Below are positions 23,387 to 25,146 of a DNA stretch of 64,000 nucleotides, one piece after another. The notes below the pieces were generated by a model, which did not search any database, was not told where the DNA came from, and saw nothing but the letters and a program-made list of their open reading frames with translations. Origin of the DNA: Flavobacterium sp. LHD-80 (GTDB lineage Bacteria; Bacteroidota; Bacteroidia; Flavobacteriales; Flavobacteriaceae); NCBI RefSeq assembly GCF_030929605.1, contig NZ_JAVFVS010000010.1, positions 124,001 to 188,000 of the forward strand, read 5' to 3'. How positions within the stretch are numbered: the stretch's first letter is position 1; each line of letters begins with the position of its first letter. Both the position numbers and the translations under genes were made by a program.

Positions 23387-24472
23387 ATGGAACAATTTGT
23401 AGTATCGGCACGTAAATATCGCCCGCAGACCTTTAAGGATGTTGTGGGGCAAAAAGCCATTACAAACACTTTGTTGAATGCTATTGACAGCAATCACCTT
23501 GCTTCTGCACTTTTGTTCACGGGACCGCGTGGAGTTGGAAAAACTACGTGCGCGCGTATTTTGGCTAGAAAGATTAATCAGCCTGGATATGACGATCCAA
23601 ATGAAGATTTTGCGTTTAACGTTTTTGAGCTAGATGCTGCTTCAAACAACTCGGTTGACGATATTCGTAGCCTTATTGATCAGGTTCGAATCCCGCCACA
23701 AACCGGACAATACAAAGTATATATTATTGACGAGGTTCATATGTTGTCTTCGGCTGCTTTTAATGCTTTTCTTAAAACATTAGAAGAACCGCCAAAACAT
23801 GCTATTTTTATTTTAGCAACAACAGAAAAACACAAAATCATCCCGACGATTTTATCTCGTTGCCAGATATTTGATTTCAAAAGAATTACAGTAAAAGATG
23901 CTAAAGAACATTTGGCTGATGTTGCTGCGAGCCAAGGAATCAATTTTGAAGATGATGCACTGCACATTATTGCTCAAAAAGCAGATGGAGCTATGCGTGA
24001 TGCTTTGTCTATTTTTGACCGTGTAGTTTCGTATTGCGGCACAAATTTAACGCGTCAAGCCGTAACTGAAAACTTAAATGTTTTAGATTACGAAACTTAC
24101 ATCTCGATTACTGATTTACTTTTAGAAAATAAAATTCCGGAACTTTTATTAGCATACAACGATATTCTTTCAAAAGGTTTTGACGGACATCATTTTATTG
24201 CCGGATTGGCATCTCATTTTAGAGATTTGTTAGTAAGCAAAACTCCTGCAACTATTGCTTTATTAGAAGTTGGAGAGCAGGCACAACAAATGTATGGTGT
24301 TCAGTCGCAAAAATGTTCTCAGGAATTTTTATTAAAAGGAATTGACATTGCAAACGACTGCGATTTAAAATACAAATTGAGTCAGAATCAACGACTTTTA
24401 GTTGAATTATGTTTGATGCAATTAGCCTCTATCAACTTTGATGGAGAAAAAAAAAAGTTGAGCAATTCATAA
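23387..24472 (+). CDS. dnaX: DNA polymerase III clamp loader subunit, gamma-length product
   Basis: The 361-residue frame-0 product has Walker A GPRGVGKTT (46-54), Walker B with IIDEVHMLS and sensor 1 LATTEKHKIIPTILSRC, followed by the helical domain III. It ends 5 codons after a run of ten A at 24447-24456. The -1 frame beyond that run is open for 229 codons and encodes the expected tau tail. The zinc-binding cysteines usual after Walker A are missing, because NQPGYDDPNED replaces them. The protein loads the beta clamp during replication. A -1 ribosomal shift, or transcripts with one extra A, would make a 586-residue tau. Confidence 0.92.
   Translation: MEQFVVSARKYRPQTFKDVVGQKAITNTLLNAIDSNHLASALLFTGPRGVGKTTCARILARKINQPGYDDPNEDFAFNVFELDAASNNSVDDIRSLIDQVRIPPQTGQYKVYIIDEVHMLSSAAFNAFLKTLEEPPKHAIFILATTEKHKIIPTILSRCQIFDFKRITVKDAKEHLADVAASQGINFEDDALHIIAQKADGAMRDALSIFDRVVSYCGTNLTRQAVTENLNVLDYETYISITDLLLENKIPELLLAYNDILSKGFDGHHFIAGLASHFRDLLVSKTPATIALLEVGEQAQQMYGVQSQKCSQEFLLKGIDIANDCDLKYKLSQNQRLLVELCLMQLASINFDGEKKKLSNS
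24447..24456 (+). other. A10 slippery run in dnaX
   Basis: Ten A precede G in frame 0 as GAA AAA AAA AAG. The last seven bases are A AAA AAG, identical to the E. coli dnaX shift heptamer. GGAG stands directly before the run. A weak 10-bp stem with one mismatch (24458-24467 with 24507-24516) could form downstream. Confidence 0.6.
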
Positions 24473-25146
24473 TTCCGCCTACTTATTTTAAAGATGGAAG
24501 CTTTTCAATTGTTGAAGTTCAAAGTGTAAAGTCCAAAGTTGAAAACCAAAGTGTTTCCGAAAATACAAAATCAGAAAATATAACGACTTCAGCTGAAGCC
24601 GAAAGTACGCAAAATACAACTGTTTCTGAAACTCCAAAAGCTCAAACTCCGGAAGCTCCAAAAACAGAAATAGACAACACGCCAAAAGTTTCCGCATTTT
24701 CTTTAGCGAGTATCCGCAAGAAAAAGGAATTAGAAGCCAGCAGTAAATCTTACGTAAAACCTTCATCTGTTTTACCTACTGAAGATTTTACAGAAACAGA
24801 AATGTTGCTCCATTGGAACAAATATGCGGAACGTTTAGGTCAAAAAGGCCTTAAGATCATGGAGTCCATATTATTGATTAGTGATCCCGTTTTAAATGGC
24901 ACAACAATTAGATATGAACTGCCAAACGAAGGTTCTAAATTAGAATTTGAAAGTCAAATGAATGCCTTACTAGGCCATTTAAAAGGTCATTTACACAATC
25001 ATGACATTACAATTGACGTAATCGTAAATGAACAAGCCCAAACAAAACGAACTTATAATAATCAGGATCGTTACAATCGTTTCCTGGAAATCAATCCAAA
25101 CATTGAACTTTTACGCAACACTTTTGGATTAGATTTAAAGGATTAA
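24457..25146 (+). CDS. dnaX: Tau-specific C-terminal part of dnaX (-1 frame)
   Basis: From 24457 the -1 frame reads without stop for 229 codons and ends at TAA 25146. The first 20 codons (IIPPTYFKDGSFSIVEVQ) continue the usual family sequence after domain III. A Ser/Thr/Pro/Glu-rich linker (about 25-95 of this part), a basic patch SIRKKKEL and a folded C-terminal domain (MLLHWNKYAERLGQKG through LRNTFGLDLKD) follow. This is the layout of a tau tail that contacts the polymerase and helicase. The part has no start signal of its own; an internal ATG at 24802 would lose the linker. It overlaps the convergent channel gene by 4 bp. Confidence 0.8.
   Translation, partial: VEQFIIPPTYFKDGSFSIVEVQSVKSKVENQSVSENTKSENITTSAEAESTQNTTVSETPKAQTPEAPKTEIDNTPKVSAFSLASIRKKKELEASSKSYVKPSSVLPTEDFTETEMLLHWNKYAERLGQKGLKIMESILLISDPVLNGTTIRYELPNEGSKLEFESQMNALLGHLKGHLHNHDITIDVIVNEQAQTKRTYNNQDRYNRFLEINPNIELLRNTFGLDLKD

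Follow-up and report, generated by a model that had tools for sequence, protein, structure and literature searches.

A conserved A10 run at the gamma/tau junction of dnaX in Flavobacterium and its relatives as a probable site of transcript slippage

How can the longer dnaX product, tau, be made from a gene whose reading frame closes at the length of the shorter product, gamma? This question is raised by the dnaX gene of Flavobacterium sp. LHD-80, which occupies positions 23387-25146 on the plus strand of the window (the whole 64-kb stretch of DNA analysed here, to which all coordinates refer). Frame 0 extends from the ATG at 23387 to the TAA at 24470-24472 and, as judged from the ORF and from profile matches, encodes a gamma form of 361 residues (23387-24472, plus strand) with the AAA+ ATPase domains, the lid and domain III, and with the C-terminus GEKKKLSNS. 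A run of exactly ten A, the candidate slippage run, lies where clamp-loader domain III ends (24447-24456, plus strand) and is flanked by G on either side; part of it forms, together with the next G and in frame 0, the heptamer A AAA AAG (24451-24457, plus strand), which is the slippery site of Escherichia coli dnaX. The junction reads GAA AAA AAA AAG TTG AGC AAT TCA TAA in frame 0. A first-pass annotation of this DNA had already described the run, the closure of frame 0 after 361 residues and the heptamer, all of which were confirmed by direct reading; it had placed the stop correctly but counted five codons after the run, whereas four sense codons separate AAG from the stop.

The three registers that meet at the run have different fates. 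When G24457 is read twice, a -1 shift equal to one A more, translation proceeds to 25146 and yields 586 residues, with KKKVEQF spanning the junction; the tau-specific tail thus defined in the -1 (A11) register comprises 229 residues and a stop (24457-25146, plus strand). The A10 register, frame 0, is closed by the TAA at 24470-24472 (plus strand), which is the end of gamma, and the A9 register is closed at once by a TGA at 24459-24461 (plus strand).

Profile and codon-position evidence support the tail as genuine tau sequence. Against the NCBIfam model NF011531 (Bacteroidota DnaX gamma/tau, curated cut-off 685), the frame-0 product by itself scored 615.2 bits, below the cut-off, and the tail by itself 83.5 bits over profile positions 410-613, while the -1 fusion reached 696.1 bits over positions 1-613 of 614 and thus exceeded the cut-off. 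This upheld the first-pass view of the -1 frame as open to 25146, composed of family sequence and giving a 586-residue tau. A Pfam search of the tail returned no match, whereas NCBIfam matched. Pairwise differences among 38 close relatives were 0.225, 0.169 and 0.413 at codon positions 1, 2 and 3 of the tail, and 0.16, 0.078 and 0.405 in its last 120 columns, a pattern which indicates protein-level selection and is the mark of a translated sequence.

An AlphaFold model of the tail, based on a 35-row alignment, had a mean pLDDT of 76.3 and a pTM of 0.48. Ten-residue blocks from residue 101 onwards showed mean pLDDT values of 72-98 and earlier blocks values of 45-70, which corresponds to a predicted tau C-terminal domain (tail residues 101-229; 24757-25143, plus strand) preceded by a low-confidence linker. 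Foldseek found no match to this model at E<=0.001; the best matches were a chain of the VcDnaB-VcDciA complex (8a3v_C, E 3.4e-3) and a chain of the SirA-DnaA domain I complex (4tps_D, E 4.8e-3), the latter of which we take to be DnaA, and the C-terminal domain of E. coli tau (2aya) matched weakly (E 0.16). The best VIA-align Z values were 8.3 (4tps_B), 8.1 (the DnaA N-terminal domain, 2e0g) and 7.6 (DciA, 7ykm), the last being shared with an unrelated ribosomal entry; middling Z values are common. The weak resemblance of the predicted domain to DnaA domain I and to the helicase loader DciA is therefore offered as a lead only. By analogy with E. coli, the tail should hold polymerase or helicase contacts.

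These properties of the tail bear on two further ways of explaining the split gene. A tail that evolves as protein, and whose addition carries the product past the family cut-off, argues against a broken gene in which tau has been lost. The tail might otherwise be a separate protein translated by re-initiation, with the N-terminal part making gamma only, and an ATG at 24802 does open a 114-residue ORF in the tail frame; this ATG, however, lies 330 nt beyond the gamma stop, the tail upstream of it is also family sequence, and relatives with tau in frame 0 encode one continuous product, so that re-initiation is very improbable.

Within the genome of the strain, a search for a second, continuous tau gene gave four matches, and among the matches listed only dnaX itself was near full length. 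The genome contains 31 A10G sites; among the 30 that were read, dnaX was the only one at which two long sense frames (1119 and 702 nt) adjoin each other. Three other sites (L328, L329 and L347) sit within single long ORFs, which by eye are glycosyltransferase-like, unidentified and TonB-receptor-like, respectively, and which slippage would truncate, and a fourth (L340) lies within a 390-nt frame. Since A10 runs also occur inside single ORFs of this genome, A10 in a gene is in itself no proof of recoding. A search of the same genome for tRNA-Lys, using a pattern that may not fit, gave no match.

The run and the tail frame were then checked in related Flavobacterium and beyond. All 249 genomes of the genus that were searched gave a match at E<=0.001, the best match being weak (E 1e-11 to 1e-14) in five, and dnaX itself was found in 244 of them, in some as a partial gene. 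A first set of 219 loci, mostly from Flavobacterium with the addition of other Flavobacteriaceae, and with F. aquidurense, F. piscis, F. hercynium and F. denitrificans among its named members, was reduced to 206 by dropping 13 duplicates. In these distinct Flavobacteriaceae loci the junction run was A10 in 200, A9 in three and A11 in three. Three dnaX genes (L177, L187 and L193) that are 91-92% identical to the Flavobacterium query come from contigs titled as Rhizobium or Bdellovibrio MAGs, titles which are probably wrong. A second set of 100 loci (20 from other Flavobacteriaceae, 40 from other Flavobacteriales and 40 from the class Bacteroidia), which was chosen by hand, enriched for short frames and is no random sample, had a run of at least nine A in 87. 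Taking both sets together, the junction run was at least nine A long in 293 of 306 loci; as the loci are related by descent, this and the following counts are inflated by kinship and do not represent independent trials.

In contrast to the junction, the remainder of the gamma part, used as a control, contained no run of at least nine A in any of the 306 loci, and the 600 nt past the junction contained one in seven. Among the Lys codons that precede the junction in these genes, 5519 were AAA and 1206 AAG. The GC-rich locus L325 has no AAA and 12 AAG among its upstream Lys codons and has nonetheless kept A10. In other classes of the phylum, a run of at least nine A was present within 240 nt of the domain III end in 17 of 35 loci and absent in 18, while control windows upstream contained none (0/140).

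Thirteen of the 306 loci lack the run. Tau is in frame 0 in nine of these, which implies that gamma made through the run can be given up, and in the -1 frame in two (L273 and L275). The other two (L287 and L327) come from tiny genomes, whose contigs measure 344,793 and 489,825 bases, and have neither the run nor a tau tail after gamma. Relatives combining a continuous frame with loss of the run, which the first-pass annotation regarded as contrary to its reading, are thus confined to 9 of the 306 loci: a continuous frame is common, and the run is mostly kept. Conservation at the level of genus, family and class supports its broader proposal that a single dnaX gene gives gamma and tau through the run, with tau of this gene needing a shift.

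The same comparison bears on a sequencing error, by which tau would truly be continuous. Homopolymers are error-prone, and two single loci (L155 and L132) have A9 where close relatives have A10, which may be errors or true register flips. At the locus studied here, an error at A10 was rejected by conservation: A10 with tau in the register of one A more (A+1) was found in 158 of the 206 distinct loci, from many assemblies, and together with the properties of the tail this leaves an error or a broken gene hardly credible. Phase variation at the DNA level, in which slipped-strand mispairing would switch tau on and off among cells, would make use of the same feature, since homopolymers within coding sequence are a usual phase-variation element (discussed in PMC3711429). 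Against it, the length of the run is near constant even though the tau register differs between loci. Moreover, tau is expected to be essential, as it is in E. coli, so that the off state would be lethal; we regard phase variation, too, as very unlikely.

The register of tau relative to the run was indeed variable. Among 288 loci with a run of at least nine A and a readable tail, tau was in A+1 in 211, in frame 0 in 67 and in the register of one A less (A-1) in 10, although two of these ten (L049 and L155, both A9) may reflect homopolymer errors. On a FastTree phylogeny of the gamma part, at least 27 register changes were needed to account for 263 A10 genes, compared to 55-64 in 20 label shuffles, and five were needed for the 168 A10 genes that belong to the Flavobacterium set (157 A+1 and 11 frame 0); both counts are rough, coming from a quick tree without branch support. 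In many other Flavobacteriaceae the junction is A10-TAGC, with tau in frame 0 and an immediate TAG upon one A more, which is the same product logic as that of E. coli dnaX. The reversed logic proposed in the first-pass annotation, by which the unshifted frame gives the short form, therefore holds for the gene of LHD-80 and does not hold as a fixed trait, given the 11 frame-0 genes among those 168. In these loci it is thus the run at the junction that is conserved, and not the frame.

A mechanism which would accommodate this is slippage of RNA polymerase as it transcribes the A10 run of dnaX, resulting in a mixture of mRNAs (A9, A10, A11 and others). Ordinary translation of the A10 mRNA would give gamma, with the stop four codons past AAG; the A9 mRNA would give a gamma ending one codon past the run at the TGA; and the A11 (or A8) mRNA would open the tail and give the 586-residue tau. 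With every register represented in the RNA, the one in which the DNA encodes tau would matter little and could drift from lineage to lineage; the run and both off-register stops would be retained. Cassettes carrying the A-runs of magnesium chelatase genes gave shifts of 63% with 11 As, 40% with nine and 10% with seven in E. coli (PMC3711429).

Slippage that puts every register into the RNA predicts stops in both of the registers that do not encode tau, and such stops were observed. The expectation was derived by synonymous reshuffling of the tau-frame codons, restricted to codons that the gene itself uses. Of 288 genes, 286 had a stop in each off-register within 12 codons, compared to 83.5 expected (the exceptions being L050 and L263), and 269 had both within six codons, compared to 37.6. 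In the diverse set only, closure within 12 codons was found in 81 of 82 genes (29.9 expected) and within six codons in 64 of 82. The A-1 register, which cannot be reached by a -1 ribosomal shift, was closed within six codons in 260 of 278 loci, compared to 123.4 expected (summed over groups); the count was 158/159 in Flavobacterium A+1 loci (81.0 expected), and the excess was modest in diverse A+1 loci (35/50, 19.8 expected).

This last result is relevant to the rival view that the run only supplies slippery codons and that ribosomes undergo programmed -1 frameshifting at A AAA AAG, the shifted product being tau here but gamma in E. coli. In favour of this view, the heptamer is intact in frame 0, and Chlorobium phaeobacteroides has been put forward in a review as a candidate whose stimulators resemble those of E. 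coli (PMC5009743). No hairpin was found just 3' of the run at the LHD-80 locus, however (z of 0.42 for 100 nt and -0.43 for 60 nt), nor, on average, after the run in a sample of 122 loci composed of the diverse set and 40 random loci of the first set (mean z of -0.34 for A+1, n=81; -0.58 for A-1, n=9; and -0.48 for frame 0, n=32). Seven of these 122 run-bearing loci, four of them among the 81 A+1 loci, had downstream folds with z below -3, including the near relatives L100 and L159. A GGAG at 24443-24446 is separated from the heptamer by only 4 nt and, on visual inspection, is not conserved in the class. This is nearer than in E. coli dnaX, in which the Shine-Dalgarno-like stimulator is located about 10 nt upstream of the slippery site.

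Furthermore, Shine-Dalgarno sequences reportedly go unrecognised by ribosomes of Bacteroidia as a result of the 16S tail being sequestered in a protein pocket (PMC9976891), and frameshifting at prfB of F. johnsoniae is reported as low, after work cited in the source (PMC12421855). Frameshifting by ribosomes also leaves the closure of the A-1 register unexplained and could not produce tau from the ten loci with tau in A-1. In 158 of the 161 first-set loci with tau in A+1, the base after the run is G, as would also fit -1 ribosomal shifting, but in A+1 loci this G begins a tau codon as well, and where tau is in frame 0 the next base is T or C instead of G in 32 of 43 loci of the same set. On this evidence ribosomal frameshifting is an unlikely account of the conserved junction, even though shifting at the intact heptamer may add part of tau.

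A ribosomal-type signal was apparent in one small group. In one family of the order (f7), 60 genomes were searched and the best 30 matches read; 27 of these keep A10 or A11, and the three that do not are the query genome (G464) and two with 79% and 78% identity to it in the gamma part. In these three loci (L273, the same as L398; L275, the same as L399; and L400) the sequence CC-A6-G is followed by a frame-0 TAG or TAA, tau is in the -1 frame, and a GGTCTG...CAGACC hairpin lies a few bases further on, with energies of -26.5, -20.3 and -19.9 kcal/mol, respectively. Compared with shuffled sequences, the hairpin of L273 stood out clearly (z of -6.28, with 0 of 200 shuffles as good), and that of L275 did not by z-score (-0.50 on 49 nt, in which the 3' arm is partly cut off, and -1.17 on 60 nt). 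These three genomes look ribosomal and in that respect favour the frameshifting explanation. It looks as if slippage had been replaced by ribosomal frameshifting in this trio, three sequences being few, and it constitutes a natural candidate for such a replacement.

Slippage on the A10 run is favoured over ribosomal shifting because all three registers are used, both wrong registers are closed, there is no hairpin and Shine-Dalgarno pairing is reportedly unused. We place the probability that gamma and tau of this dnaX arise through RNA polymerase slippage on the run at roughly 0.8, a value that comes from comparative sequence data; slippage itself, its efficiency and the presence of two proteins in the cell are what we infer from them. 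The two mechanisms had been rated as equally good in the first-pass annotation, a balance which the comparative evidence shifts towards slippage, with the possible ribosomal share at A AAA AAG noted above. With somewhat less assurance, we consider it likely that throughout Bacteroidia and part of the wider phylum it is the slippery run that is conserved and not the frame: the DNA register of an essential protein would drift almost neutrally among three states, all supplied by RNA polymerase, with the run and a pair of off-register stops as its only constraints, and a small clade would have lost the run and acquired a ribosomal signal (A AAA AAG, stop and hairpin) instead.

In most Flavobacterium loci read, a replisome subunit expected to be essential thus appears to be made only through slippage, so that polymerase inaccuracy would be part of the gene, and dnaX would be a case of a reading frame able to drift since its decoding is mixed. 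Because the tail is expected to carry the polymerase or helicase contacts, cells lacking slippage should fail. In practical terms, gene callers will report the 361-residue gamma and miss tau.

Among known systems, the closest is that of Antonov et al. (2013), who with GeneTack identified dnaX genes that need recoding for tau, 17 genes in 12 genera, nine with ten As and with predicted slippage, none of the 17 being annotated as such (PMC3711429). The reversed two-ORF dnaX with A10 has therefore already been described computationally, and the LHD-80 gene fits that description, with two adjacent ORFs, a -1 transition, a second ORF that completes tau and A10 at the junction. Relatives with tau in frame 0 that keep the run, the closure of both registers and a clade with ribosomal signals are not described for this dnaX type in the accessible part of that paper. 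More generally, register drift at such a scale, the closure test and the hairpin clade were not encountered in the literature on dnaX recoding and slippage surveyed, in part from incomplete texts; further papers may exist.

In Thermus thermophilus, slippage on the A-run of dnaX has been shown to yield gamma and tau (as described by Baranov et al. 2005, PMC1088944, and Atkins et al. 2016, PMC5009743). Both systems have a run of at least nine A at the end of gamma and stops nearby in both non-tau registers; the Thermus run is A9 with tau in frame 0, whereas here the run is A10, tau is in A+1 and slippage is deduced from comparison. For Blochmannia dnaX, which carries a poly-A frameshift, full-length tau has been proposed to arise by transcript slippage, and a figure of 30% full-length transcripts is quoted for frameshifted endosymbiont genes (PMC3017870). 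The Blochmannia frameshift occurs past the gamma site, within the part of the gene that only tau uses, and in an endosymbiont whose genome is decaying, unlike the present one, which is at the gamma/tau boundary and is kept across the class. As in E. coli, one gene would give gamma and tau at an A AAA AAG site. In E. coli a ribosomal -1 shift makes gamma with the aid of an upstream Shine-Dalgarno-like element and a downstream hairpin; here the shift would make tau, no hairpin was found at the locus, and Shine-Dalgarno pairing reportedly does not work in the group. Relative to all of these, what is apparently new is the breadth of the conservation, the drift of the register and the three genomes with a heptamer and hairpin in place of the run.
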